Shown here: positions 5,483-45,260 of the stretch, piece after piece
Position numbering within the stretch: the stretch's first letter is position 1
Layout of the letters: each line of letters opens with the position of its first letter
Origin: a virus
Strand: one strand, 5' to 3'
IMG/VR virus record: IMGVR_UViG_3300049027_000115
Location: 1 to 54,930 of that record
DNA: 54,930 nucleotides
Position numbers and translations under genes: made by a program
The notes under the pieces: generated by a model
Seen by the model: only the letters and a program-made list of their open reading frames with translations
Database searches by the model: none
What the model was told of the DNA's origin: nothing

Positions 5483-6757
5483 ATGAAAAGAATCTTTACT
5501 GGCTTGTTCTTCTTCGATGCTGCGGCAGGCGAAGGGGGCAAGGGCGGCTCTGAAGAGCTGGTGATCCTCAAACAAGTGGATCAGAAAGTAGACCAAATCA
5601 AAAAGGACTACGAAAAAGAAGTGCGTGAGCTCAAAGAAGCCAACACGCAAGCAGAAACAAAATACAAAGACTACGAGCAAAAGGTAACTGATCTCAATAC
5701 AGAGCTTGCCGCCAAGGGTGCTACTCTGAAAGAGATTCAGGATGAAGTGATACAGCTCAAAGCGAAGAGTGGCCAAATGTCTGTTCAGACGGAGAAACAC
5801 TCCTCCATGCGCGGGCTTATTCTGAAGGAATGGGATGCCGCAGCTGAGAAGCTGAAGAACTTCCGTTCTGACATTCACAACAAGAACAATCCTTTCCCTG
5901 TACTGGAAACTAAGGCTGTTGGTACTATGACCAACGCTAACAATATCACAGGTGTTTCCATCAACGGTGTACCAACCTGGAATCAGGAGTTTGCGGTACG
6001 CGGCCGTATGAAAGTGCATGCGCGTGATATCATCCGCACGATCAATACCGGTACCGGTATCTATTTATTCCTGCGTCAAAACATCCCTGCTGGTGAAGGC
6101 TCCGTGGGTGCCACTGCGGGCCCTGGCCAAGTAAAGCCATCCAGGGATTACGACAACACGATGATCACCGTGACCGCCAAGTATCGCGCGGGAACAGTTG
6201 ATGTCGCTGCAGAAATGGAGCAGGATATTCCTGGCCTCGGTGAATACATCACAGAAGAATTGACGGAAGACTATCTGCGCGCTGAGACTTTCGACTTTAT
6301 GCAAAGTCTGGTAAGCGCAGCCTCTGCCAACAATTCTCTTCCTCCTGGTGTGACTGTGCCAGCTGAAAAGATCCCTCACTATGTGGCGAATCTGGAACAA
6401 AACGACTATGATCCTGACACGCTCATTGTGCGTCCGCGTCAGTGGGCAAATTTGCTCAATACAAAACCATCAGACTACAGTACGCCCGGCGGATTCGTTG
6501 TATTGCCAAACGGCGAAATCCTGTTTGCTGGCCTTCGCCTCGTGAAGATGTCTACCAATGCTATCAGTGATAGCCAGATCGTGGTGGGCGACTTCCGTAA
6601 GGCTCTGATCGTGCAAAAGTCTGGTGAAGGCTTCCGTGTGGAAATGTTCAAGAGCCATGACAAACACGTCTATCAGAATATCATCACCTTCCGTGGTGAG
6701 GCTCGTGCAGAACTCGCAATCCTGCGTCCTGACGCCTTCCTGGTAGGAACCATGTAA
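5483..6757 (+). CDS. Major capsid protein with N-terminal scaffold (delta) domain
   Basis: This 424-aa protein has the HK97-like plan. After a short start, residues about 25-110 form a charged coiled coil typical of the delta/scaffold domain. A basic joint follows, where the protease presumably cuts (about residues 110-145), and then the coat domain. Coat hallmarks include TVDVAAEMEQDIPGLGEYIT in the middle and the C-terminal FRVEMFKSHDKHVYQNIITF. It follows the protease by 2 bp and ends just before a strong terminator, as expected for a highly expressed late gene. Confidence 0.9.
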   Translation: MKRIFTGLFFFDAAAGEGGKGGSEELVILKQVDQKVDQIKKDYEKEVRELKEANTQAETKYKDYEQKVTDLNTELAAKGATLKEIQDEVIQLKAKSGQMSVQTEKHSSMRGLILKEWDAAAEKLKNFRSDIHNKNNPFPVLETKAVGTMTNANNITGVSINGVPTWNQEFAVRGRMKVHARDIIRTINTGTGIYLFLRQNIPAGEGSVGATAGPGQVKPSRDYDNTMITVTAKYRAGTVDVAAEMEQDIPGLGEYITEELTEDYLRAETFDFMQSLVSAASANNSLPPGVTVPAEKIPHYVANLEQNDYDPDTLIVRPRQWANLLNTKPSDYSTPGGFVVLPNGEILFAGLRLVKMSTNAISDSQIVVGDFRKALIVQKSGEGFRVEMFKSHDKHVYQNIITFRGEARAELAILRPDAFLVGTM

Positions 6758-6766
6758 TCAAATATG

Positions 6767-6794
6767 CCGGCGGCTTCGGTCGCCGGTTTTCTTT
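6767..6794 (+). terminator. Intrinsic terminator with UUCG tetraloop after the capsid gene
   Basis: An 8-bp GC-rich stem (CCGGCGGC / GTCGCCGG, one G-U pair) closes a TTCG loop and is followed by TTTTCTTT. It lies 10 bp after the capsid stop and 6 bp before the next start codon. Genes of the glycan cassette and tail must be reached by partial read-through, antitermination or their own promoter. Confidence 0.85.
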
Positions 6795-6799
6795 CTCTT

Positions 6800-7390
6800 A
6801 TGTGGGAATTCTTTGATCAAAAAGTTTGTTTGACTGCTGATGCCGGTGAATGGCAGAAAGCAGTCGATGAGTTTGCCAGGGTCGGATTATCCGTTCACAA
6901 ATTCGATGCAATGCCCGATATCGGGCCACATCAATCTTTCAATCGGTCTACCCGGCAAATACTAATACAGTTCTTTGAATCGGATGGTGATAGTCTTTTG
7001 TTTCTGGAAGATGATTGCTGGTTTCAGGATCTGTCACAGCTGCAGCATGCACTCGCTGAGCTCCCCGCTGACTGGGATATCGTTTATCTCGGTGCCAATA
7101 TCCAGGATGAGAAACCTGAAAGAGTTTCAGATTATGTGTACCGCATTCGGGCTGCATGGACAACTCACTGCATCGGCTATCGTCGTAAGGTGATACCGTT
7201 TATCCTGGAGAATCAACCGGGATTCAGTGAGCAGATGTACGATAACTGGCTTTCCAGTCAGTTACCTAACCTTCATGCCTATGTGATCAATCCTATGGTA
7301 GCATGGCAGCGCCCCAGGGTAAGTAAGATATGGAACAACATGGCGGATTACTCAGAACACTTTGAACGTTCGCAAAAACTCCTTGCATGA
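6800..7390 (+). CDS. Glycosyltransferase family 25-like protein
   Basis: This 196-aa protein resembles GT25/LPS-type glycosyltransferases: an N-terminal MWEFFDQKVCLTADAGEW, then SLLFLEDDCWF with the acidic metal/sugar-nucleotide motif, and DIVYLGANI. A start at 6764 is possible in the same frame, but that codon is at the edge of the capsid terminator and would add a stretch encoded by the hairpin. The ATG at 6800 fits the family N-terminus. The stop overlaps the next gene by 4 bp. It is the first gene of a cassette inserted into the structural operon. The acceptor is unknown: virion protein, host glycan or other. Confidence 0.75.
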   Translation: MWEFFDQKVCLTADAGEWQKAVDEFARVGLSVHKFDAMPDIGPHQSFNRSTRQILIQFFESDGDSLLFLEDDCWFQDLSQLQHALAELPADWDIVYLGANIQDEKPERVSDYVYRIRAAWTTHCIGYRRKVIPFILENQPGFSEQMYDNWLSSQLPNLHAYVINPMVAWQRPRVSKIWNNMADYSEHFERSQKLLA

Positions 7391-8163
7391 ACCACTTGGT
7401 AACATTCACGGACGATAACATGACCATCTCGGCAGAGATCTGCGCAGCGAGTGCGCGGCGCCATGATGTTGATCAAACGTGGACATGGAACAAGGCAGCG
7501 TTAATGCAAACGGAATTTTACCAGGACAACAAAGAGCTCCTGGATCAGCCGCGCGGTTGTGGCTACTGGGCATGGAAGCCATTTGTTATCCTGCGAACCA
7601 TGCAAGCGGCAGCAGATGGCGATATAATCATCTATGCTGATGCAGGTGTCGAGTTCATAGACAACGTAAATCACATCGTTCCCAAAATGAATGATATCTG
7701 GCTCTTTGCCAATTTGTGGCAACACATACATTGGTGCAAGGCCGATACTATGAAAGCACTCAACTGTTGGGATTCAGGCAGCCAGGTGCAAGCAAGCGTA
7801 ATCTTCATTCGGAACTGCAAACAGATGCGCGATTTCGTAAGTGAATGGTTGGAGTGGTGCACGGTTCCTTATCTCATCGATGATAGTCCAAGTAAATGCG
7901 CCAATCATCCAGAGTTCCAGGAACACCGACACGATCAGGCTATACTTACAACGATGGCATATCGGGAAAAGATTCTGTTGCACTGGTGGCCAGCAATGTA
8001 CAACGCAGGAGCATTCGCCTATGATAAACAAGGCTTCCGGGATAACTACCCGGTCCTCTTTCATCATCACCGGCGGAGAAATGAAGACTGGTCAAAGACC
8101 GACCCTCTGAACCGACAAATCACCGATTATTTCAAACGCCGCAATTACGGCATAAAACTATAA
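7387..8163 (+). CDS. Putative glycosyltransferase (GCGYWAWKP / DADAG type)
   Basis: This 258-aa protein matches a poorly named group of nucleotide-sugar-transferase-like proteins. Recognisable parts are RGCGYWAWKPFVI, then DGDIIIYADAGVEF (acidic DxG motif in a Rossmann-like context) and the late EHRHDQAILTTMAY. No signal peptide or membrane segment is seen. It overlaps the upstream GT25-like gene by ATGA and the next ORF starts 2 bp after its stop. The transferase call is from motif memory; donor and acceptor cannot be told. Confidence 0.6.
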   Translation: MNHLVTFTDDNMTISAEICAASARRHDVDQTWTWNKAALMQTEFYQDNKELLDQPRGCGYWAWKPFVILRTMQAAADGDIIIYADAGVEFIDNVNHIVPKMNDIWLFANLWQHIHWCKADTMKALNCWDSGSQVQASVIFIRNCKQMRDFVSEWLEWCTVPYLIDDSPSKCANHPEFQEHRHDQAILTTMAYREKILLHWWPAMYNAGAFAYDKQGFRDNYPVLFHHHRRRNEDWSKTDPLNRQITDYFKRRNYGIKL

Positions 8164-8165
8164 CC

Positions 8166-8396
8166 ATGTCAAAAGCCAAAAAAGATACAGAATTGGAACA
8201 GGATGCAGCTCAGGAGGCTACTCCCTGCGCATGCGTGGAGGTGGTAAAAGCCTTTGCTGCACTTCCCCTGGAGCAACGTCTGGCGGTTCACAAAGCCATT
8301 GATCAGGCCGTTGCTATCGACAAGGAGCGCGCTGGTCTCGGCCAGGACTCGAACACTGAATTGTACGATCAGGCTATAGCCGCACTCAACCAGTAA
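8166..8396 (+). CDS. Hypothetical small acidic/alanine-rich protein in the glycan cassette
   Basis: This 76-aa protein has a hydrophilic N-terminus, a CACVEVVKAFAALPLEQRLAV helix with a Cys pair, and a C-terminal YDQAIAALNQ helix. No family is recognised. It is embedded 2 bp after a glycosyltransferase and 2 bp before a methyltransferase. It could be a partner of the cassette or a leftover structural gene from the original post-capsid position. Confidence 0.6.
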   Translation: MSKAKKDTELEQDAAQEATPCACVEVVKAFAALPLEQRLAVHKAIDQAVAIDKERAGLGQDSNTELYDQAIAALNQ

Positions 8397-8398
8397 GC

Positions 8399-9016
8399 AT
8401 GCAATCATTTGTAAACAAGTACGCCAAGGATATCACTTACTCCCAGAACGGGGAAGAGGGAATATTGATTGAATGCCTGTCCCGGATGGGAATCACCAAA
8501 GGCCATGCGGTGGAGATCGGCGCCAACGACGGGAAGTGGTGTAGCAATACAGCCCTGCTGATTGAAAAAGGATGGACCGCTAAAATGGTGGAAGCTGATT
8601 TCGATCTGTGGACGAAGTGCTGCGCAAATTGGCAAGGTAATAATCGCGTGAAGGCTCAATGCACAAGGGTGGATGCTTACAACATCAATGCATTTGTTGA
8701 TGATAAATGTGATGTGCTCAGCATCGATACTGATGGCTTGGACTTTAAACTGTTTGAGGCGTTGAAAGCGAAACCAAAGATCGTGATTGTGGAAATCGAT
8801 AGCAGCATACCTCCGGATAAGACCGGTTTCAATGCTGAAGGTGGATCCAGCTACAGGTCAATGGTAGAGCTCGGTATTTCAAAGGGATATTTCCTATTGT
8901 GCCACACCGGTAACCTGGTGTTTGTTGATGCAGAATTTCAAGAGTTGTTTCCAGAGATCGAGGGTGATCCGCTCACTGATACAAAAGAGTATTTCAAAAC
9001 TGCATGGCTCCAATGA
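8399..9016 (+). CDS. FkbM-like SAM-dependent methyltransferase
   Basis: This 205-aa protein has the SAM-binding motif I HAVEIGANDGKWCSNT at about residues 36-51. The acidic motif II region MVEADFDLW follows, and later come CDVLSIDTDGLDFKLFEAL and KPKIVIVEIDSS. FkbM-type enzymes often O-methylate sugars in surface glycans or antibiotics. Its place between glycosyltransferases suggests capping or decorating the same glycan. The stop overlaps the fucosyltransferase start (ATGA at 9013). Confidence 0.72.
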   Translation: MQSFVNKYAKDITYSQNGEEGILIECLSRMGITKGHAVEIGANDGKWCSNTALLIEKGWTAKMVEADFDLWTKCCANWQGNNRVKAQCTRVDAYNINAFVDDKCDVLSIDTDGLDFKLFEALKAKPKIVIVEIDSSIPPDKTGFNAEGGSSYRSMVELGISKGYFLLCHTGNLVFVDAEFQELFPEIEGDPLTDTKEYFKTAWLQ

Positions 9017-9804
9017 GGAAGATAGTAACCTTCAATAGCTTGGGGCGGTACGGCCGCTTCGCCAATCAGATGTTTCAGATTGCTGGGACTATCGGTATCG
9101 CTCGTAAAAACGGTTTTGATTTTGCTTTCCCTGAATGGAAGAACTATGATCATGCAGAGCGCTTCGGCAGCCATGAGGATATCGACCTGCAGAAGTATTT
9201 CGTAAATCCTCTTCCTGTCTATCAGGGCCCAGTATTGCCGGAAAGGTTTGTAGATTGGGGTTACCATGATATTCATCTAACGGAGAACTGTAGCCTTTCA
9301 GGCCACATGCAATCGGAAAAGTATTTCTCACACTGCCTCGACGAGATCCGCTGGTATTTCCGGATGAAGGATGAATACCCGACAACGGATAAGGTTGCAA
9401 TTCATATTCGGTTGGGAGACTACGACAACGCTTACCATCCCAGGATGGATATGGGATACTTCGCACCAGCAATTGACCAGTTTTCAAAAGGTACCAAATT
9501 CCTTGTGTTTAGTGACGAACCGGTAAAGGCAAAAGAAATGTTTGCCAAGCATTATAAGGAAATCAAGCGGTTTGAATTTGTAGAAGCGGATTACATCGAT
9601 TCCTTCAAACTCATGAAATCCTGCAGGCACTTCATTATTGCCAATAGTAGCTATTCGGCCATGGCGGCAATATTAGGCGAGACTCCTGATAAGAAGATAA
9701 TTGCTCCGGCACCATGGTTCGGACCTAAGTACACCAACATTACAGGGAATGATATCTATGGTGAAGGTTGGTCAGTAATTGATTACGAACAAATAAAATT
9801 GTAA
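9013..9804 (+). CDS. Alpha-1,2-fucosyltransferase-like (GT11)
   Basis: This 263-aa protein is a clear GT11-type enzyme. GRYGRFANQMFQIAGTIGIA is near the N-terminus and VAIHIRLGDYDN at about residue 128 carries the HxRxGD donor-binding motif. FIIANSSYSAMAAIL near the end matches the third conserved block. GT11 enzymes transfer fucose or galactose-type sugars to glycan ends. An ATG at 9004 is also in frame, but the ATG at 9013 overlaps the upstream stop as ATGA and is preferred. Confidence 0.85.
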   Translation: MRKIVTFNSLGRYGRFANQMFQIAGTIGIARKNGFDFAFPEWKNYDHAERFGSHEDIDLQKYFVNPLPVYQGPVLPERFVDWGYHDIHLTENCSLSGHMQSEKYFSHCLDEIRWYFRMKDEYPTTDKVAIHIRLGDYDNAYHPRMDMGYFAPAIDQFSKGTKFLVFSDEPVKAKEMFAKHYKEIKRFEFVEADYIDSFKLMKSCRHFIIANSSYSAMAAILGETPDKKIIAPAPWFGPKYTNITGNDIYGEGWSVIDYEQIKL

Positions 9805-9807
9805 GCA

Positions 9808-9996
9808 ATGTTTGATAAAATCATCCTGCCTGGCTACTCGCAGGCACAACGAGCATCATTCGAGAATTACTTGTTTTCATCTGAAAGAGAAAAGAATCTC
9901 ATCAACAACCCGGGGTTGATGAATGCGCAGGAGCGTGCTCAGAAGGTGCATCATGCCGATGTTGAGAACTGGAAAGTAAAGGAGGAAAAGAAATGA
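9808..9996 (+). CDS. Hypothetical small protein in the glycan cassette
   Basis: This 62-aa charged helical protein ends in KVKEEKK and has no recognised family. It starts 4 bp after the fucosyltransferase stop and overlaps the next glycosyltransferase by ATGA. The lysine-rich end of this gene also provides a strong Shine-Dalgarno sequence (AAAGGAGG, 9978-9985) for the downstream gene. Confidence 0.6.
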   Translation: MFDKIILPGYSQAQRASFENYLFSSEREKNLINNPGLMNAQERAQKVHHADVENWKVKEEKK

Positions 9997-11078
9997 GGTT
10001 CCTCTGGATCATACACCTGTACCCACCAAAGCACAATTGTGGTAGTGAGCTTATGGCTCACCACATCAACAGGTTTTTATTGAGTAAGGGACACGAGGTG
10101 AGGGTGGTGCTGATGCAGGCTAAGTGGCACAATGTAAAAGTGCCCTATGATCATGAAGGTGTACGGGTAATGGGAGATCCAACTGACAATCTCGATGTAT
10201 ACCGCTGGGCAGACGTATTGCTCACGCACCTGGACTTTACCAGGTTCGCGATCAATATAGCCAGGCTGGTGAAGAGGCCGATTGTGAATTTCATTCACTC
10301 GCATTACACCTACAGCCCGAATCCAATACCTGATGCGAAATCCGATTGCCATGTGGTTTACAACAGTCAGTGGGTGAAAGAACACTTGAATTATGACTGG
10401 CCTTCCATGGTCATGTACCCGCCGTGTGATCCGGCATATTACAATGTGTGTGAAGATTCGTGGAAAAACAAGGCGATTACCATGATCAGCCTCAACGAAA
10501 ACAAAGGCGGCTACATTTTATATCGTGTGGCGAAGGCTATGCCTTACGCGAAGTTCATCGGCGTAACCGGCTCTTATGATGATGGTGGCCTGCAGGATGC
10601 GATAGTGAACAAAATACGGAACGAGTGCCCTAATGTAGAGATAGTTCCGAATACGCCGAATATCCTGGAAGTGTATAAGCAAACCAGAGTACTGCTGATG
10701 CCTTCACGATATGAAAGCTGGGGCCGTACCGCAACAGAGGCTATGTGCAACGGTATACCAGTAATCTGCACGGAGACGAAAGGGCTCCGAGAGAACTGTG
10801 GTGATGCTGGCCTGTACATCCCGGACCGCGGTCCCTGCAAAGCTGACCAGTTTGGGAAGATAGTAGAGCATGACGGTGATGCTTATGATATAGAACCCAT
10901 CCTTCAGCATTTACGAAACCTGGATAACGAGACTTATTACAGAAAGGTAAGCGTGAAGTGTGGGGAAAGGGCCGAAGAGCTCAACCCCACAAACCAGATG
11001 CAACAACTTGAAAACTTTTTGGCGAATGCAAAACGATATCGTGGATATAAAGAGAAGGCAGGCCACCTCCATCACTGA
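9993..11078 (+). CDS. Glycosyltransferase family 4
   Basis: This 361-aa GT-B fold enzyme has the N-terminal LWIIHLYPPKHNCGSELMAH with an SKGHEVRVVLM strand. The C-terminal nucleotide-sugar site reads LLMPSRYESWGRTATEAMCN with the downstream GIPVICTETKGLRENCG. These are hallmark retaining GT4 features (the E-x7-E region). A strong Shine-Dalgarno 7 bp before the ATG suggests high translation. The 3' end overlaps the head-tail connector by 53 bp, so the cassette is tightly fused to the tail operon. Confidence 0.88.
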   Translation: MRFLWIIHLYPPKHNCGSELMAHHINRFLLSKGHEVRVVLMQAKWHNVKVPYDHEGVRVMGDPTDNLDVYRWADVLLTHLDFTRFAINIARLVKRPIVNFIHSHYTYSPNPIPDAKSDCHVVYNSQWVKEHLNYDWPSMVMYPPCDPAYYNVCEDSWKNKAITMISLNENKGGYILYRVAKAMPYAKFIGVTGSYDDGGLQDAIVNKIRNECPNVEIVPNTPNILEVYKQTRVLLMPSRYESWGRTATEAMCNGIPVICTETKGLRENCGDAGLYIPDRGPCKADQFGKIVEHDGDAYDIEPILQHLRNLDNETYYRKVSVKCGERAEELNPTNQMQQLENFLANAKRYRGYKEKAGHLHH

Positions 11079-11622
11079 GCCGGTAACCCTGGCAATTGTG
11101 AAGGAATGGCTGATCATCGATCATAACGATGATGATGCTTTATTGACGCGCCTTATACCACAGGTTCGTGCAGCCATTGAAAATAAAACAAAACTGTCCC
11201 TGGTTGAGCGGGAAGTGGTAGTTACTGTTCGTCTTCATGGAGAATTCAAACTCCCCTACGGGCCGGTGAGGTCTATTACATCTGTGGTTTATAGCCCGGA
11301 TGCAGATCCGGAAACATTGACCACCGATGATTATAAGCTAAATGGCCAGGATCAAAAAGTTATTCGGATAAACAAGTGTGGCATGTCTCAGATCACCTAC
11401 TCCGCGGGTTATGGAGTGGTCGTTTCACCTGAATACAACAATCCAATACCCGAAGACCTGATGAATGGAATTCTTCAGGAAATCGCCTACCGATACGAAC
11501 ACAGAGGTGACGAAACAAACACGAAAAGCAGCGCCGGCAATGATACAGTGAACGCCATTGATGGAATCAGTTCAGGCGCCATGCAATATATAAAACCTTA
11601 CATCGGAATGGCATGGGTGTAA
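11026..11622 (+). CDS. Head-tail connector (gp6-like)
   Basis: This 198-aa protein resembles HK97 gp6-like connector proteins that ring the portal. The N-terminal EPVTLAIVKEWLIIDHNDDD is followed by LLTRLIPQVRAAIENKTKLS, the usual two-helix opening. The tail reads ITYSAGYG and ILQEIAYRYEHRGDE. A longer frame starts at 10960 but overlaps the glycosyltransferase further; the ATG at 11026 places the family motif near the start. The gene resumes the structural order interrupted by the glycan cassette. Confidence 0.8.
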   Translation: MQNDIVDIKRRQATSITEPVTLAIVKEWLIIDHNDDDALLTRLIPQVRAAIENKTKLSLVEREVVVTVRLHGEFKLPYGPVRSITSVVYSPDADPETLTTDDYKLNGQDQKVIRINKCGMSQITYSAGYGVVVSPEYNNPIPEDLMNGILQEIAYRYEHRGDETNTKSSAGNDTVNAIDGISSGAMQYIKPYIGMAWV

Positions 11623-19681: not shown

Positions 19682-22600
19682 ATGAAAATAAGCACTCAAG
19701 AGAGAGTAGCTTTCCGGGGTAAGTCCTGGCAGCTCCTTCTCTTCTTACTGATCCTTTACGGATCTTCCTTCGCACAGGGTTTCCCTGGCACAGACAGCTT
19801 GCGTAATTACAATACGCGCTACATTACCAACAATCCCAACACTGCCTTTACAAACTTGCGGCTGCACACTTTGTTGCGGGGCGTGATTGACTGGATTGAT
19901 ACTGCCAGGATAAGCGGCGGTGGAGGTGGCGGCTCTTTGGGCATTGATACAATCTACGCGATCAATGATTCCACTATCCGTTACAGGAAGAGTGGAGTAT
20001 TCCGGAATGTTGTCATAAAAGGGGTATATGATAATCGTCGTAAGGTCGATTCCATGTACCAGATAAATGATAGTACGATCGGGTATAAAATCAATGGGGT
20101 TCAGCGAACATTTATTGTAAGAGGATCTCCGGGATGGCAATTAACAGGCAATGCTGACACCGATCCTTCCAACTTTCTCGGCACCACAGATGAGAAGCCG
20201 CTCCGCATTGCTACCAACGGCGTGCAGCGGATCCTGGTGGACAGTGTTACCGGTAAAATAGCGTTCATCCAGGATAGCGATACACTATACCTCATTCCAG
20301 GTAGTGAGAACCTGATATCGGCTTCGCCCGGAACGGATCTTTCTTTAAAAACAGATAATGCATTACTGCGAATTGGAGGTGCGAAGAAGTTCGTAATAGG
20401 AGGCATTGATAACGGCGGCAATCCTGCAACAGATTCCTTCCTTGTTCGTAATCCTGTTGACAGTTTGGTGAAGGCTATGAGTACAGCCTTATTTGCCACA
20501 CAAGCAGCTCTCAATGATAGTGCGACTGCTTTACGAAATGCAATAGCTACAATGCTGGATAGTACGCTAGGAGTAATTTACCAGGCCGTGGGCTTCTCAA
20601 ATCTCAGCGATTTCACTAACAGGGGCGCCACAGCTTCAGTAGTAGGTGCTGACATAAGTTTTTCCGGTGGTGCAAATAACTTCAACCAAACACTGGAATA
20701 TAATATAGGTACGTTACTCGAACAGTGGCACCAATCCGCAGTATTTATCCCGACTGAAAAAACTTCCACATCATACGGATTTGGACTGGGCATACGAAGC
20801 ACCAATTCCAGTGCTGTGAATGTTACAGCAAAATTCGATGCCACTACCGGAAGCAATTCCGGCAAATTACTAATCTATGCAGGTTCCAATATATTGGTAA
20901 AGACAGGTGAAACAGCAATTGCCTTCAGTGCGAATGATTCGCTGGAGCTGCACGTGGAGCGCGCGACAGATTCGATTTACACATGGATATTCAATCGCAC
21001 ACAGAAGGTGAGCAGTCCTAAATTGTCCTACGGATACTCTTTTGCTTCTGATGCAACCGTATTCACACCCAATACTGGCCGGTTCGCTATTTCCAGCTTC
21101 GGTGGCACATTCAAAGTATCAGAGTTGACCATTACATCCAACACGCCAAAGCGTCCAGATGTCCTGATAATTGGAGACAGCAAGACTGCGGGATACTTTG
21201 CCAATTCTCCTTTCGACCGGTGGGCAGTCATGTTCAGGAAATCCTTTCCGAATACTGTAATTCAGGCGGGCAGTGCTGATAAGATCACTGACGCAATGGC
21301 GCGGTTGGATGAGACACTGAGCATTCTTCCCCGGCAGGTACTCTTATCTATTGGCGTGAATGACATCAGAGTGGGCGTAGACAGCAATACAATAAAAAGC
21401 AATTATACCACCTACGTAGCCTCTTTGCAGGCAGGTGGCGCAATGGTGTATCATCTATTGTCTATGAAGGAAGTTTCGCTGAACGCAGATTGGTTCAACA
21501 ACTTTATCATCCGCACCTGGCCGAATGAATACATCGATTCTAAAATTCAGTTCTGTAATGACTGTCTTGCTTTCGACAATATACATCTGAATAATAAAGG
21601 TAACACTGTAGTTGCTGGTGCTGTCATTAGCAGCGGCAAGTTGCAGGGGCAAACGAGTGTTGAAGATAATTCTTTGAACTCGGTATTGGCAAAAGGAAGT
21701 GTCTCAAATATAACGCCTATAATTGGATCCATCTCTCGTTTAGGTGGGACTGCGGCGGGCTCTTTTTCTGATCCAAAATTAATACTGACCAGCTCTACAT
21801 ATCCATCAATTGTTATGGAAACTGGTACGACTAATTTTGGCGGCGGCTCCATTGCATGGAAAACGAACAGAGGCGGTCCGAAAGTTAATCCTTCTCTATT
21901 CGGCGATAGCGTTGCTATGGCAATGGTTGTTCATGCCTACGATAATACCGCACGTACATGGGCGCTTTTTACAGCAACCAATTCGAGTAACCAGGTAACA
22001 GGATTCGCAATCAGACAACCAGATAGTGATTTCATCGGAACGAGATCGAGAGTGACAGCTCAGGCCGGACAGAACTTATATGCAGGATTTGAATTAGCAG
22101 GAACAGTGAATTTCAATGCTACACAAGCTGTCTTTGCTGTCAATGCAGCCACGCAGCCTGTAGACTTCTATAATCTCCCTTCTGTCAGCATTGATACTAC
22201 TACGTATAAGCCATTGGTTCGGCGTTCTGATGGCCGTACTTATACATCATACTGGCCTGTATATGGCGGCGGCGGGGCTGGCACGGTTACAGACTTTACA
22301 TTCACAGATGGAAATGGCTTCGATGGAACCGTATCTACATCAACTTCAACGCCAACATTATCAATTACTACATCTTTGACAACTGGCAGTGTTCCGTTCA
22401 TCGGTGCAGGCGGCGCGTTGTCGGAAGATAATGCAAATCACTTTTGGGATAATTCAAACAAACGTCAATCTATAGGAGCAGGCACGAGCCCATCTGCTCG
22501 ATTGCATATAAACAGCGATGCTCTTGGCGGTACCACTACAGGAACGTCGTTAAACTCCTCCGGTATTTTTTTATCGAGCACCACGGCTGCTACGAATGGT

Positions 22601-23533
22601 GCACAACAAATGAGCCCCGCGATAGTGATGCGAGGAAATGGGTATGGTACCACGGGATCTGCAAGCCAGACAGTGGATTGGAAAATGCAGGTATTACCCA
22701 TCCAGGGAACTACTCCTTCTGCTCAGCTAGTTTTTTCACCGAGCATTAATGGAGCAACTTATACTTCGCCTATTAATTTTACTTCGGGTGGCATGATCAA
22801 TGCTGGTACTCTGGTGACCACTGGCGCTATCGTTACCGGATCAGCATCCTTCCTTGGATGGCAGGGAAGATCGACCATGTATTCACCTGCTAATGGCAAT
22901 ATTCGTCTTACTAACCAGGCCGGTACTGATTTCGGCTTATTGATTTTTGGAGATGCTACTTCTTCTTTTCCAGCGCTTCAACGTAGTGGTTCGGGGTTGA
23001 TTTTACGTCTCGGTGATAATAGCGCCGATGCGCCACTTACCGCTTCAGGCCTTACACTTTCCGGCCTAACGGGAACTGGTACGCGCCTTTCTACCACTTC
23101 CTCGACCGGCGTGTCCGGTGCCATTACCAACGGATCTGATGGACAAGTGATGACAATGGTAAGCGGATCCCCGGCATGGACCAATAAAGATTTCGAAAGC
23201 GGGACGTATACACCGACCGTGTCCGGATTAACCAACGTTACTTCAAACACTCCTCAAAATGCTACCTGGATGCGTGTCGGAAATACTGTAACAGTTGCCG
23301 GCGCTATAGATATTGGTACGGCATCCATTGGTACCGTTTTCAGTTTATTTCTATCCCTTCCAATCGCTTCGAATTTTACTGGTTACGATGGCGGCGGAAC
23401 TGGGGGTTATGCGTTAGGGACGAATTGCTATACCCTGACCACGAATGTCGCCAACGATGTAATGCAATTGCAAGGTACATCCGAAAACACCGGGATGACT
23501 ATCACGTATCATTTCACATACACCATCAAATAA
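19682..23533 (+). CDS. Tail fiber with signal peptide and SGNH esterase domain
   Basis: This 1283-aa protein has an N-terminal hydrophobic segment LLLFLLILYGSSFAQGFPG, which looks like a cleavable signal peptide with a Bacteroidota-style SFAQ site, after a 16-residue polar start. An SGNH/GDSL hydrolase lies at about 490-650: IIGDSKTAG (Ser block), LSIGVNDIR (Asn block), FDNIHLNNKG (Asp-x-x-His block). The long Gly/Ser/Thr-rich middle is repetitive beta structure. The C-terminal GTYTPTVSGL...WMRVGNTVTVAGAI domain resembles fiber tips of Bacteroidota phages. It likely binds and deacetylates host surface glycan. Confidence 0.85.
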   Translation: MKISTQERVAFRGKSWQLLLFLLILYGSSFAQGFPGTDSLRNYNTRYITNNPNTAFTNLRLHTLLRGVIDWIDTARISGGGGGGSLGIDTIYAINDSTIRYRKSGVFRNVVIKGVYDNRRKVDSMYQINDSTIGYKINGVQRTFIVRGSPGWQLTGNADTDPSNFLGTTDEKPLRIATNGVQRILVDSVTGKIAFIQDSDTLYLIPGSENLISASPGTDLSLKTDNALLRIGGAKKFVIGGIDNGGNPATDSFLVRNPVDSLVKAMSTALFATQAALNDSATALRNAIATMLDSTLGVIYQAVGFSNLSDFTNRGATASVVGADISFSGGANNFNQTLEYNIGTLLEQWHQSAVFIPTEKTSTSYGFGLGIRSTNSSAVNVTAKFDATTGSNSGKLLIYAGSNILVKTGETAIAFSANDSLELHVERATDSIYTWIFNRTQKVSSPKLSYGYSFASDATVFTPNTGRFAISSFGGTFKVSELTITSNTPKRPDVLIIGDSKTAGYFANSPFDRWAVMFRKSFPNTVIQAGSADKITDAMARLDETLSILPRQVLLSIGVNDIRVGVDSNTIKSNYTTYVASLQAGGAMVYHLLSMKEVSLNADWFNNFIIRTWPNEYIDSKIQFCNDCLAFDNIHLNNKGNTVVAGAVISSGKLQGQTSVEDNSLNSVLAKGSVSNITPIIGSISRLGGTAAGSFSDPKLILTSSTYPSIVMETGTTNFGGGSIAWKTNRGGPKVNPSLFGDSVAMAMVVHAYDNTARTWALFTATNSSNQVTGFAIRQPDSDFIGTRSRVTAQAGQNLYAGFELAGTVNFNATQAVFAVNAATQPVDFYNLPSVSIDTTTYKPLVRRSDGRTYTSYWPVYGGGGAGTVTDFTFTDGNGFDGTVSTSTSTPTLSITTSLTTGSVPFIGAGGALSEDNANHFWDNSNKRQSIGAGTSPSARLHINSDALGGTTTGTSLNSSGIFLSSTTAATNGAQQMSPAIVMRGNGYGTTGSASQTVDWKMQVLPIQGTTPSAQLVFSPSINGATYTSPINFTSGGMINAGTLVTTGAIVTGSASFLGWQGRSTMYSPANGNIRLTNQAGTDFGLLIFGDATSSFPALQRSGSGLILRLGDNSADAPLTASGLTLSGLTGTGTRLSTTSSTGVSGAITNGSDGQVMTMVSGSPAWTNKDFESGTYTPTVSGLTNVTSNTPQNATWMRVGNTVTVAGAIDIGTASIGTVFSLFLSLPIASNFTGYDGGGTGGYALGTNCYTLTTNVANDVMQLQGTSENTGMTITYHFTYTIK

Positions 23534-29753: not shown

Positions 29754-31313
29754 ATGACAACAGCGTTTGGGTATATGCGCCTTTCAGGCGAGGACCAATC
29801 CTTCTATTCCACCGAGTTTCAGGAGGCGGGCATTCGTGAGTATTGTAAGCGACATGGTATTGAGCTGAAACAAATCTTGCTGGATAATGGAGAGAGCTCC
29901 TATACTTTTGAACGCAAAGCCTTCAAAGACATGGAGGCGCTTTTTAAAAAGCACAAGGCAGATTATCTTATAGTCTACCACCTGGATCGATTTGGCCGAA
30001 ACATGGCCGAGGCAATGCTGAAGGTAAAGTACTTCCTTGATAAAGGGATCAAGGTCCGCGATATAAGTGAGCCTTTGGATATGGATGATACGGACATGAA
30101 CACGTTCATGATGCGTACCATGAAGTTCATGGCTGCTGAAACAGAATTGCACCGGATCCGGGCAAGAACTCAATCCGGTTTGCGCCAGGCAAAATTGAAC
30201 GGCAGGTTTGCGGGCGCCGCTCCTTATGGCTACCGCAATGGCAGAGACGAAGAAAGCAAAAGTGTGCTGATAGTTGAAGAGGAAGAAGCAACCATCGTAA
30301 GAAAAATTTTTCAACTATACATTGCTGGCGCTACAGTTGAAACGATCAGGAAGATCGTTAAGGAAAAAGGGTTCAAGAAAACTGGAACCTCCACCATACA
30401 ACGTATGCTGGCCAATCCTGTATATGCCGGCCTCGTTCATGTGCCAGGAATAAAAAATAGTCCAGCGCAGACAGTAAAAGGAATTCACACCGCGCTGGTG
30501 ACAGAATACGATTATTATCATGTGCAGGAAAAATTAAATCGAAAGACTGTCATCACCCAAAACCGGGAAGAGGTTCCTTTGCGGGGTGTATTAAGATGCA
30601 CATGCGGAGCATTGATGACAGCCGGCAATTCCAGAAATAAGGTGGGCAATTATTTTTGGTATTATGTATGCCGGAAAGGGCACAAGGTGAATCTTTCTGC
30701 TATTAAAATATACAAACAGTTTATTGAACTACTGCAGGCGCTTTCGCTTAAAGAGCGCGAGGTCCAACAAATTCGCATTAAGCTGACAGAAAAAATGCAG
30801 GGCTTTTTGAGCAACCATGAATCCAAAGAGAAAGAGATCCGCAAACGTCTTTCTATAGTCGAAAACAAAATACAGACAGCGGAAGAGCGATATCTCACTG
30901 GGATTGGCAGCGAGAAAGCTTATCACAAAGTGATGACTGAGATGAAAACAGAGCGTGCGAGAATATATAACGAACTCGCCCAGGCAACTACTAACGCCAG
31001 TGTATATTGGGAGCGGCTGGAAGTTGTTTTAAACACATTGGAAAATGTCGCTGAGGTATTCGAAAAATTCTCGTTAGAAAAAAAACATCAGTTCATAAAC
31101 CAGGTGTTCAACCACTCTCTTAACCACGATGGTGCTATCTATCGAACACAAAAATTGCACGAAGTTTTTCGGCATAAGACAAACGAACTCAAAGAAAAAG
31201 GGCTGCTCCATGTGGACAGCCCTGTAGTTGATTTGAGAAGTACTCTCGTGAGTACCGGGGACGAGAGCCCAATCGAACTCATAGACAGACTTTATAAGGT
31301 GCTGGCAGGGTAA
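29754..31313 (+). CDS. int: Large serine recombinase (phage integrase)
   Basis: This 519-aa enzyme catalyses site-specific integration and excision. The resolvase catalytic domain begins AFGYMRLSGEDQ with Arg9 and the nucleophile Ser11, continuing to YLIVYHLDRFGRNMAEAM. The recombinase domain contains APYGYRNGRDEES, and the zinc ribbon is CTCGALMTAGNSRNKVGN with a later C..GH. A coiled coil follows (about 340-400). No tyrosine integrase or excisionase was recognised. attP should lie close by, most likely in the 61 bp after its stop, but no core can be fixed from this sequence alone. Confidence 0.93.
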   Translation: MTTAFGYMRLSGEDQSFYSTEFQEAGIREYCKRHGIELKQILLDNGESSYTFERKAFKDMEALFKKHKADYLIVYHLDRFGRNMAEAMLKVKYFLDKGIKVRDISEPLDMDDTDMNTFMMRTMKFMAAETELHRIRARTQSGLRQAKLNGRFAGAAPYGYRNGRDEESKSVLIVEEEEATIVRKIFQLYIAGATVETIRKIVKEKGFKKTGTSTIQRMLANPVYAGLVHVPGIKNSPAQTVKGIHTALVTEYDYYHVQEKLNRKTVITQNREEVPLRGVLRCTCGALMTAGNSRNKVGNYFWYYVCRKGHKVNLSAIKIYKQFIELLQALSLKEREVQQIRIKLTEKMQGFLSNHESKEKEIRKRLSIVENKIQTAEERYLTGIGSEKAYHKVMTEMKTERARIYNELAQATTNASVYWERLEVVLNTLENVAEVFEKFSLEKKHQFINQVFNHSLNHDGAIYRTQKLHEVFRHKTNELKEKGLLHVDSPVVDLRSTLVSTGDESPIELIDRLYKVLAG

Positions 31314-38437: not shown

Positions 38438-38833
38438 ATGAAATATACTCCTGAAAAAATTGATACATTGGAGAACACAGATGTCTTCGTGTTCGGTACA
38501 AACCAATTCGGCACACACGCAGGTGGTGCTGCAGCTTATGCTCAACAGAATTTTGGTGCTATCGATGCTGTTCCATTAGGACTGGCTGGAAAGACTTATG
38601 GCATCATTACAACCTCTTATACTAAGGAGGTTATCTCACTCGACTTCATCGAGAACCAGGTAAAAGTATTATACCAGTTTGCAAGGTTCCGTGAAGAGCT
38701 CACTTTCTACGTTACAAAGATCGGAACCGGTATTGCCGGGTTCATGATCGAGGATATCGCTAACATCTTCTTCAAACTTGAAACACTCCGTCCCTCAAAC
38801 ATCATTCTCCCAATCGAATTCACTCAACAATGA
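38438..38833 (+). CDS. A1S_2505-like phage protein (macro-domain-like)
   Basis: This 131-aa protein has the distinctive start VFVFGTNQFGTHAGGAAAYA, then GLAGKTYGIITTSYTKEV and FYVTKIGTGIAGFMIEDIAN. I recall this pattern from phage proteins named A1S_2505-like, with a macro-domain-type nucleotide-binding fold. In other phages the family is often encoded near early genes; its role is not known. The ATG at 38438 is chosen over an upstream TTG. It overlaps the next gene by ATGA. Confidence 0.65.
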   Translation: MKYTPEKIDTLENTDVFVFGTNQFGTHAGGAAAYAQQNFGAIDAVPLGLAGKTYGIITTSYTKEVISLDFIENQVKVLYQFARFREELTFYVTKIGTGIAGFMIEDIANIFFKLETLRPSNIILPIEFTQQ

Positions 38834-39786
38834 CAAAGAAAAAGGCTGCTGTATCGGTAGCAGAACAACCGGTAGAAAAGATTACCAAAGGTTATAAAGT
38901 GACTGATCCTGACATGCAATGCAGAGGTTTTCAGTACGAGCTCGCAAAAGTGTATGAGCACAAAGGAAGCATTTCTCCTTGCCAATCAGGCTTTCATTTT
39001 TGCCCCAAAGTAGCAGATTGTTTCAGTTATTATCAATTCGATAAACGTAATCGTGTTTTTGAAGTTGAAGCTCTGGGTGAAGTGATTGAGCATGAAGATA
39101 AAATTGTAGCCGGCAGGATCCGGTTTGTTAGGGAGATACCCTGGGAGGAAATGCTGAAGCTGGCGAATGAGGGAAATGATAATGTTGGTTTGAGTAACAC
39201 CGGCGACAGTAACACCGGCCACAGTAACACCGGCGACAGGAACACCGGCCACAGTAACACCGGCGACAGGAACACCGGCCACAGTAACACCGGCGACAGG
39301 AACACCGGCCACAGGAACACCGGCCACAGTAACACCGGCGACTGGAACACCGGCGACAGGAACACCGGCCACAGTAACACCGGCGACTGGAACACCGGCG
39401 ACAGGAACACCGGCCACAGTAACACCGGCGACAGGAACACCGGAGCTTTCTGTACGGAGACTCCACCTTTCACCCTCTTCGATAAACCGACTACCTGGAC
39501 GCTGCAGGATTTTGAAAGCAGTAATGCGTTCCGTCTCATGTCCACTCATGTAAATACGAAAATGTGGGTTCCGGATTACGCCATGACAGAAGCCGAAAAA
39601 GAAGCAAACAAAGGATGGAAAACTGCGGGAGGCTATTACAAGGATATTCCTTTCAAAGAGGCCTTTACCAATGCCTGGCACAATTGGGACGAAGACAATC
39701 GCACCTCCTTCACAAATCTGCCAAATTTTGATGCAGATAAGTTCGAGCAGATCACGGGTGTGATAGTTGAACAAAAGAAAAAGTAA
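38830..39786 (+). CDS. DUF7666-like domain with NTGxx pentapeptide repeats
   Basis: This 318-aa protein has an N-terminal domain (KGYKVTDPDMQCRGFQYELA then KVYEHKGSISPCQSGFHFCP) resembling DUF7666. It is followed by 16 perfect-length pentapeptides NTG(D/H)(S/R/W) at residues 123-202. A C-terminal domain (ETPPFTLFDKPTTWTLQDFE…) also occurs in such proteins. Pentapeptide_2-like repeats form extended beta structures. The combination is seen in phages; its function is unclear (binding surface or DNA mimicry are guesses). The long ORF on the opposite strand is only a shadow of the repeat. Confidence 0.75.
   Translation: MTKKKAAVSVAEQPVEKITKGYKVTDPDMQCRGFQYELAKVYEHKGSISPCQSGFHFCPKVADCFSYYQFDKRNRVFEVEALGEVIEHEDKIVAGRIRFVREIPWEEMLKLANEGNDNVGLSNTGDSNTGHSNTGDRNTGHSNTGDRNTGHSNTGDRNTGHRNTGHSNTGDWNTGDRNTGHSNTGDWNTGDRNTGHSNTGDRNTGAFCTETPPFTLFDKPTTWTLQDFESSNAFRLMSTHVNTKMWVPDYAMTEAEKEANKGWKTAGGYYKDIPFKEAFTNAWHNWDEDNRTSFTNLPNFDADKFEQITGVIVEQKKK
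39196..39435 (+). repeat. Coding 15-bp tandem repeat, 16 units
   Basis: Sixteen consecutive units of AACACCGGC(G/C)AC(AGT/AGG/TGG). The first nine bases are identical in every unit, so codon choice is fixed as well as the amino acids. A one-unit relic (NVGLS) precedes it. The identity suggests recent expansion or homogenisation. Confidence 0.95.
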
Positions 39787-43478: not shown

Positions 43479-45260
43479 ATGCAGACGACAAAAGACCTAG
43501 TAATAGACATTTTTGATCCATTATTCATTGCAGTAGATCTTTTCTGCGGCGCTGGTGGAACAACCACTGGATTTGATACAGCAGTTCTCTCTCGAAGGGT
43601 GTTGTCTGAATATGGTGTAGGTAAGGATTTTATGGAGAATGGATTCAGTAAAATTGTGAAGGTGATCGCCTGTGTGAATCATGATCCGATTGCTATCAAA
43701 AGTCATTGGCGCAATCATCCGGAGGTAAAGCACTTTGAAGAGGATATCCGGACGTTGGATCTTACCGAACTGAAGAAGCAGGTAGCCTTCTACAGAAATA
43801 AGTACCCCAATGCATTGTTGATCCTTTGGGCTTCTTTGGAATGCACCAACTTCAGTAAAGCGAAAGGCGGACAGCCGCGCGACGCAGACAGTCGTACTCT
43901 CGCTGATCATCTCGAAAGGTATGTAGTAGCTCTCAATCCGGACCTGATTCAAATTGAAAACGTGGTAGAGTTTATGAGCTGGGGGCCGCTGGACGAAAAC
44001 GGAACACCTATCTCAAAAAGGAATGGAGAAGATTACATGAGGTGGCGCGAAATGATCAAAGTGCATGGCTATCGGGATGATTGGAGGGAACTTAACAGCG
44101 CAAACTTCGGAGCTTACACTTCTCGCAACAGGCTGTTCGGAATATTCGCCAAACCAGGTATCCCCATAGTCTGGCCGGAAGCTACACATGAGAAAGTGAG
44201 GGAAAAGCAGAAGGGTGCCGTGGATCTCTTTTCATCTTCTCAGCAACCGTGGAAGGCCGTTAAAGAAGTTCTCGATTTTGAAGATGAAGGTCAAAGCATT
44301 TTCAATCGGAAGAAACCCCTATCTGACAAAACACTGGAGAGGATACTGGCCGGCCTGATCAAATATGTGGCAAAGGGTGACAAGGCTTTTATCAGTAAGT
44401 ACTTCAGTGGTAAGCCTAAAGGGAAAGTGAACAGTGTACAGGCGCCGGCGTCAACAGTAACAACCTTCGGAAACCAATCTCTGGTGCAGACAAAGAGTTT
44501 TTCCGATCTATCAGTTGATCAGCCTGCAGGAGCGCTTACGACTATCGACCATCATGCGCTGGTTCAAACGGCAGCATTCATTCAACAACGCCATGGCGGG
44601 AAACCTGAATCAAAGATTGTCGATGTGAATGGACCAGCTAGGACAATAACTTCAACTGGCGGTAATCAGGACCTGGTTCAGGCCACCTTCCTTACAATCT
44701 ATAATGGGAAAAGTTTATGCCGGAGCACTGACCAGCCTGCGCCAGTAATTGCATGTAATGATCGACTCTCTTTGATCCAGCCCTTCCTCATGCCTACCAA
44801 CTTTGATAACCCTCCTAAAAGCATAGAAGATCCAGCCCCGGTGATCACAGCCAACAGAAAACACACATACCTGGTGAATCCATCTCACGGCGGATGGAAT
44901 ACCTCTACAGAGCAACCATGCCCAGTTATTATAGCCCGTCAAGACAAGGCGCCGCTCTACTTGGTGCAGGCGAAGGAAGGCCCTTTCATGGTGCCCATCT
45001 ATCCAGACGACTCTGAAGTAATGATCGAGATAAAAAAGTTCATGGCAATGTTCAATATAGTCGATATCAAAATGCGGATGCTGCGCGTGTTGGAACTTTT
45101 GAAGATCCAGGGATTCCCGGCAGACTATAAACTGGAAGGCAACCAGGCAGATCAAAAGAAGTTCATCGGCAATAGTGTGGTCCCTCTGGTTGTGAAGGCA
45201 TGGCTGGAGGCTTTAGGTACCGAAGTTCTTCCTATTCTTTACCAAAAGAAAGTTGCATAA
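43479..45260 (+). CDS. DNA C5-cytosine methyltransferase
   Basis: This 593-aa enzyme methylates cytosine in DNA, probably protecting phage DNA from host restriction. Motif I FIAVDLFCGAGGTTTGFD is near residue 17. The catalytic Cys lies in LECTNFSKAKGG (about 122; the usual PCQ is replaced by ECT). IQIENVVEFM carries the ENV motif, TSRNRLFGIF corresponds to motif VIII, and GNSVVPLVVKAWLEAL is motif X. Between them is a repeat-rich target-recognition region (about 320-500). No partner restriction enzyme is seen. Confidence 0.9.
   Translation: MQTTKDLVIDIFDPLFIAVDLFCGAGGTTTGFDTAVLSRRVLSEYGVGKDFMENGFSKIVKVIACVNHDPIAIKSHWRNHPEVKHFEEDIRTLDLTELKKQVAFYRNKYPNALLILWASLECTNFSKAKGGQPRDADSRTLADHLERYVVALNPDLIQIENVVEFMSWGPLDENGTPISKRNGEDYMRWREMIKVHGYRDDWRELNSANFGAYTSRNRLFGIFAKPGIPIVWPEATHEKVREKQKGAVDLFSSSQQPWKAVKEVLDFEDEGQSIFNRKKPLSDKTLERILAGLIKYVAKGDKAFISKYFSGKPKGKVNSVQAPASTVTTFGNQSLVQTKSFSDLSVDQPAGALTTIDHHALVQTAAFIQQRHGGKPESKIVDVNGPARTITSTGGNQDLVQATFLTIYNGKSLCRSTDQPAPVIACNDRLSLIQPFLMPTNFDNPPKSIEDPAPVITANRKHTYLVNPSHGGWNTSTEQPCPVIIARQDKAPLYLVQAKEGPFMVPIYPDDSEVMIEIKKFMAMFNIVDIKMRMLRVLELLKIQGFPADYKLEGNQADQKKFIGNSVVPLVVKAWLEALGTEVLPILYQKKVA

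Follow-up and report, generated by a model that had tools for sequence, protein, structure and literature searches.

We examined IMG/VR virus record IMGVR_UViG_3300049027_000115 over its full length of 54,930 bases (the window). Seven tightly packed plus-strand genes, A to G (6800-11078), fill the space between the genes for the major capsid protein (MCP) and the head-tail connector. They encode predicted glycosyltransferases (GTs), a methyltransferase and two small proteins, and we suggest that this cassette might decorate the virion head with a glycan. The locus is organized as follows.

5483-6757, plus strand: MCP, HK97-type (Pfam Phage_capsid 1.2e-7; PHROG major head protein 2.2e-16)
6766-6787, plus strand: intrinsic terminator after the MCP gene (9-bp stem, UUCG loop, T-rich tail)
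6800-7390, plus strand: A, GT25-like glycosyltransferase with EDD motif
7387-8163, plus strand: B, GT-A-fold glycosyltransferase with Y-x-D-A-G motif, without a Pfam family
8166-8396, plus strand: C, small lineage-specific protein
8399-9016, plus strand: D, FkbM-family methyltransferase (PF05050 3.4e-7)
9004-9804, plus strand: E, GT11-like fucosyltransferase with GRFANQ and HIRLGDY motifs (PF01531 1.2e-13; phrog_2644 7.8e-48)
9808-9996, plus strand: F, 62-aa protein (84% identity to the copy in relative L003)
9993-11078, plus strand: G, GT4 glycosyltransferase (PF13692 5.7e-13; phrog_26352 2.1e-53, full length)
11026-11622, plus strand: head-tail connector, start ATG 11026 (Phage_connect_1 3.3e-12)

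A preliminary description, made from the sequence alone, had reported such a packed seven-gene run between capsid and connector. The run is indeed there, recurs in L003, and its core is found in dozens of contigs. A/B and F/G join through ATGA overlaps, D and E overlap by 13 nucleotides (nt), and the remaining cassette junctions are gaps of 2-3 nt. Given the connector start at ATG 11026, G overlaps the connector gene by 53 nt in the window; this overlap measures 53 nt in five contigs and 4 nt in 18. An in-frame ATG at 6764, upstream of A, reads ATA in L003 and is not kept there, so the start of A remains at 6800 as first described. In Cellulophaga phage phi18:1, where the slot carries no cassette, MCP and connector genes are separated by 69 nt.

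The cassette is largely co-inherited with the MCP gene. L003, with a capsid protein 94% identical to that of the window, carries all seven genes in the same order. Ratios of nonsynonymous to synonymous substitution (dN/dS) between the two are 0.06-0.12 for A, B, E, F and G, near those of structural genes; synonymous sites in C and D are saturated, and dN/dS is limited to the unsaturated genes. In three further scans, A-B-D-E-G was still found between MCP and connector in relatives whose capsid identity falls to as little as about 22%. Distances in cassette genes correlate with MCP distances at 0.97 (G), 0.94 (A), 0.92 (D), 0.81 (E) and 0.64 (B). Purifying selection and synteny across diverged capsids reject a recent or hitch-hiking insertion, as the word "inserted" in the preliminary description could be taken to imply. 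A tree of concatenated A, B, E and G agrees partly with the MCP tree and places L041 differently from L028 and L032, which suggests exchange of some genes. B and E are the likelier candidates because of their lower correlations with MCP distance. A simple one-gain history was also rejected, as the MCP tree requires at least two changes; long branches make the depth uncertain.

The B profile matches 362 IMG/VR loci. Among the 82 hits nearest to the window, 46 have a complete run of MCP-A-B-(D)-E-G-connector, 19 show the MCP and a cassette that runs into the contig end, and five show the cassette followed by the connector. Seven carry A-B-(D)-E upstream of the MCP gene with G after it, and five have neither flank. 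A second draw, made from the most deviant member (L126), yielded 26 further contigs, with 13 complete, six plus three truncated, two split and two where the MCP was not within reach. Hits are shared between the two draws and some of the contigs nearly duplicate one another, hence the counts are not independent events. In both draws together, 59 of 108 loci carrying B have the complete core order from MCP to connector, and most of the others are truncated contigs that agree with it. In a second architecture (nine loci), A-B-(D)-E precedes a highly divergent MCP gene, and G still follows it. G is the cassette gene most constantly placed between MCP and connector, being downstream of the MCP in both main architectures, and in L040 it is the sole GT recognised in the MCP slot. 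L144 (3371-8352; tallied among the three truncated contigs) shows a third arrangement: the portal gene is immediately preceded by GT2-like genes, A, B, E and a gene resembling a methyltransferase. Cassette-free relatives also exist (Flavobacterium phage 11b and phi18:1). Some loci carry additional changes. GIY-YIG or HNH homing endonuclease-like genes, read by eye, are inserted at L032:5291-6352, L027:8965-9573 and L110:9171-9761 with the gene order intact. In L134 (5405-5921), A is split into two overlapping open reading frames (ORFs), a rare case that is probably a broken gene or an assembly error.

The first two enzymes were assigned largely through structure. A of the window falls below the Pfam threshold, and PF01755 (GT25) is matched by 2 of 12 relatives (best 7.2e-6). 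Searched against PDB, the A family profile matches mimivirus R655 (1.8e-4) and procollagen galactosyltransferase 1 (about 1e-3). The predicted model of A (predicted local distance difference test score, pLDDT, 93) superimposes on the GT25 domain of COLGALT1 with Z 19.7 and a root-mean-square deviation of 2.0 over 173 aligned residues, well above the scores for unrelated GTs. The EDD motif is invariant in alignment A8. Model comparison and alignment thus place A among enzymes with a GT25-type GT-A fold and an acidic EDD motif. For B, none of the 13 members scanned matches a Pfam glycosyltransferase family, and a sequence search against solved structures returned zero matches. The predicted model (pLDDT 85.4) has a GT-A fold, with the first domain of A064R from chlorovirus PBCV-1 as top structural match (2p6w, Z 14.6). 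A GT6 enzyme (1g8o, Z 14.4) and the GT8 enzyme glycogenin (3q4s, Z 13.7) are effectively tied with it, so only the fold is claimed for B and no single CAZy family is picked. The nearest folds of A and B include the protein-glycosylating enzymes COLGALT1, mimivirus R655 and PBCV-1 A064R. Of 395 genomes searched in the phylum, 9 contain diverged B homologs. Several of five such bacterial loci inspected are of O-antigen type, with neighbouring genes that visual inspection suggests to be Wzx flippase, GT2, GDP-mannose dehydratase or fucose synthase. Active-site-like motifs of A, B and E are retained in nearly all copies.

The remaining enzymes match known profiles. D matches Methyltransf_21 (31 bits against a cut-off of 22.7) and probably O-methylates a sugar; it is optional, being present in 35 of the 82 loci. 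E matches the GT11 profile PF01531 (51.4 bits, cut-off 23.9), and its H-x-R-x-x-D type motif (HIRLGD in the window) is found in 97 of 100 copies; the other three are cut off by contig ends. G carries the GT4 Glycos_transf_1 C-terminal domain, with PF13692 and PF00534 above cut-off. The proposal of a fucose-capped glycan is strengthened by three of the nine second-architecture loci. There, a GDP-L-fucose synthase gene lies directly before E with a 4-nt overlap (L082:11857-12765, L084:13142-14095, L098:8005-9012), encoding proteins with 41-43% identity to a bacterial one. This overlap is indirect and the best evidence that E might use GDP-fucose. No GDP-L-fucose synthase gene was found among the window ORFs scanned, so the host would have to supply the donor.

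The two small proteins had been considered as possible glycan acceptors. This was rejected, since most relatives lack C and F and both proteins are Ser/Thr-poor. C shares 70% identity over its conserved part in L003 and 29% in L036, and the majority of close relatives have a second FkbM methyltransferase in its stead. Such genes lie between B and D at L025:8783-9385, L027:6730-7320, L028:8953-9534 and L032:8759-9337. F was found solely in the window and L003, with no homolog in the other loci compared. C and F are accessory at most.

A terminator of differing sequence occupies the same place in 77 of 84 MCP-A junctions, where mononucleotide-shuffled sequence would give 0.8. It also follows the MCP gene in cassette-free phages 11b and phi18:1. 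Hence, the cassette likely sits behind an old step-down point in expression. The enzymes, together with the low-copy connector, would then be made in small amounts behind the terminator.

Viral genomes offer several points of comparison. In mycobacteriophages Che8 and Rita, glycans are attached covalently to capsid and tail-tube subunits (Freeman et al. 2023, via PMC12619734 and PMC11256854). Phage-encoded GTs are thought to modify these subunits there, and modification of a head protein is proposed for the window. The GT genes of the related mycobacteriophage Maravista lie near the genome 3' end (PMC11256854), in contrast to the capsid position seen here. The mycobacteriophage glycans sit at subunit C-termini, whereas the window MCP has no such tail, and those sources do not mention a GT25-GT-FkbM-GT11-GT4 series in fixed order beside the capsid gene. 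PBCV-1 uses its own cytoplasmic GTs and a sugar O-methyltransferase to make a fucose-containing, O-methylated glycan on its major capsid protein (A064R, A111/114R; PMC7826918). The GT-A fold of A064R domain 1 is also that of A and B in the window. However, PBCV-1 is a eukaryotic virus with multidomain enzymes and an N-glycan, and an identity of about 8% in the structural alignment indicates fold kinship only.

Closer to the window in kind, phi18:1 carries a methyltransferase (gp40) and a glycosyltransferase (gp41) in the head module of a Bacteroidota siphovirus, with lipopolysaccharide (LPS) modification among the roles proposed for gp41 (PMC11946311). These are two genes only and lie between MuF-like and protease genes, whereas MCP and connector are adjacent. 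The earlier impression that no such set was on record for a Bacteroidota siphovirus should thus be tempered. The Bacteroidota host of the window is itself inferred. The phi18:1 gp40 gene (L063, 1057-1524) is annotated as a DNA methyltransferase from PF13578, yet it stands beside the head-module glycosyltransferase; gp40 is a candidate sugar methyltransferase worth testing. Streptomyces phage TurkishDelight encodes a tandem GT4-like protein, gp20, that resembles G (29%, E 1e-25) and lies between capsid and major tail genes. Its host belongs to another phylum, only G-like domains matched, and A, B, D and E were not detected in the TurkishDelight region read. Synechococcus phage S-SM2 belongs to cyanophages with GT11 and GT25 genes side by side, one of which shares 38% identity with E; those genes differ in lying within a sugar-metabolism island of a 190-kb phage. 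No description of a GT cassette beside a phage capsid gene was found in the literature searched, with most subscription papers outside reach.

We favour the interpretation that soluble cytoplasmic enzymes equip the virion head with a fucosylated, O-methylated glycan, with a probability of roughly 60%. Late in infection, RNA polymerase would transcribe the head operon, and most transcripts would stop at the terminator after the MCP gene. Read-through would yield small amounts of soluble enzymes and connector while heads are being built. Nucleotide sugars from the host (UDP-sugars, GDP-fucose) would serve as donors. The GT25-, GT-A- and GT4-type enzymes might then assemble a short oligosaccharide on one of the head proteins, with the MCP as the likeliest target. 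E would add fucose and D would O-methylate a sugar, leaving the capsid surface sugar-coated and partly methylated, presumably to the benefit of the virion. As to the order of sugars, our guess is that G attaches the first, because it is the sole GT recognised in the MCP slot of L040 and the sole one matched in TurkishDelight. No transmembrane segment was found in the seven proteins (a 19-residue stretch above 1.2 on the Kyte-Doolittle scale was sought), and no polyprenol-GT or flippase gene was found among the window ORFs scanned. A set of soluble GTs and a sugar methyltransferase that stays with the capsid gene and lacks membrane partners is consistent with glycosylation of a head protein. 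The enzyme set and its place thus stand as first described, a virion glycan remains its most likely product, and the MCP is a candidate acceptor.

Several observations weigh against glycosylation of the head. No acceptor site was identified, and the MCP and tail-tube protein have no Ser/Thr-rich C-terminal tails and few sequons. Acceptor tails of the mycobacteriophage type were sought on both proteins and none was seen. A collagen-like acceptor, considered for the COLGALT1-like A, was rejected, as the window contains no Gly-X-Y runs of seven or more. B matches the folds of many functionally different GTs equally well, and L126 is the sole long locus without recognised head genes, with a B-E pair in a 20.7-kb stretch. 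The cassette-free phages 11b and phi18:1 imply that the glycan is not needed for this capsid type. GT25, GT11 and FkbM enzymes also modify LPS, and the bacterial B homologs occupy O-antigen-type loci.

These last points lead to an alternative that we consider possible and rather unlikely, namely that the enzymes alter LPS or capsule precursors of the host late in infection. This might exclude superinfecting phages or stop released virions from sticking to debris. The three enzyme families are common in LPS loci, the B homologs neighbour Wzx-, GDP-mannose dehydratase- and fucose synthase-like genes, and late timing alone would permit such a role. LPS modification is also what the phi18:1 authors propose for a structural-module GT (PMC11946311). 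However, any late position would serve this purpose, whereas the cassette is tied to the MCP gene in two head architectures. No membrane or lipid-carrier enzyme was found among the window ORFs scanned, and distances correlate strongly with those of the MCP, more weakly for B and E. Within the virion explanation itself, the target could be the portal, connector, tail tube or fibre of the same operon instead of the MCP, which we regard as improbable. Mycobacteriophage glycans occur on both capsid and tail-tube subunits according to PMC12619734, and the fibre protein of the window is Ser/Thr-rich (22.8%), but both main architectures keep the cassette adjacent to the MCP gene and not to tail genes.

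Two further explanations seem very improbable. Phages also bear GT genes in gtr serotype-conversion cassettes, which combine a membrane flippase and a bactoprenol GT beside the attachment site. The window encodes a large, integrase-like serine recombinase (29754-31313), and the phage is probably temperate, so that a prophage could conceivably alter the host O-antigen; against this, the cassette belongs to the late head operon, with about 18.7 kb separating it from the integrase gene, and neither a GtrA/GtrB-like membrane protein pair nor a flippase or bactoprenol GT was found in it. Glucosylation of modified phage DNA is hardly more credible: DNA-modifying phage GTs are known (cited in PMC12619734) and the window encodes a C5 cytosine DNA methylase, but no hydroxymethylase or TET-like gene was found among the ORFs scanned (some small ORFs were unscanned), and the cassette tracks the capsid gene rather than replication genes. 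That methylase (43479-45257) is, at 593 aa, long for its family and matches in two stretches, and likely carries a large insertion. Elsewhere in the window, a 1283-aa tail or fibre-like protein (19682-23533) contains an internal GDSL/SGNH hydrolase domain (residues 497-600) and is a possible tail esterase. Pentapeptide repeats are joined to a DUF7666 domain at 38830-39786.

Terminase and capsid of the window are similar to those of Flavobacterium phage 11b and Cellulophaga phages. This similarity, together with two metagenome-assembled genome (MAG) contigs labelled Flavobacteriales, points tentatively to a host among the Bacteroidota. These two MAG contigs were what a terminase genome scan for cassette-bearing prophages returned, and they contain no recognisable cassette or head genes. 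The MCP profile recovered three unrelated prophages only in 395 genomes of that phylum.

To our knowledge, phage virion glycosylation is established in few cultured phages, mainly actinobacterial ones. We lean, somewhat less firmly than for the window itself, towards a widespread module dedicated to capsid glycosylation. Its enzymes, ordered into a line and retained next to the capsid gene in two or more very different head architectures, would make a fucosylated, O-methylated glycan, with timing and dose set by the terminator that follows the capsid gene, and would form a phage counterpart of chlorovirus capsid glycosylation. The gene content of the window and about a hundred relatives suggests that many environmental phages may coat their own heads with sugar. 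Questions raised include the threat against which the glycan protects, the residue that bears it, and whether adsorption, decay or grazing is affected. The cassette also offers phage-derived enzymes for the study of glycan assembly on protein scaffolds. The signature of GT25, GT-A, FkbM, GT11 and GT4 beside the MCP gene would allow glycosylated phages to be predicted from sequence. A conserved, capsid-tied cassette in dozens of lineages would make virion glycosylation common in the environment.

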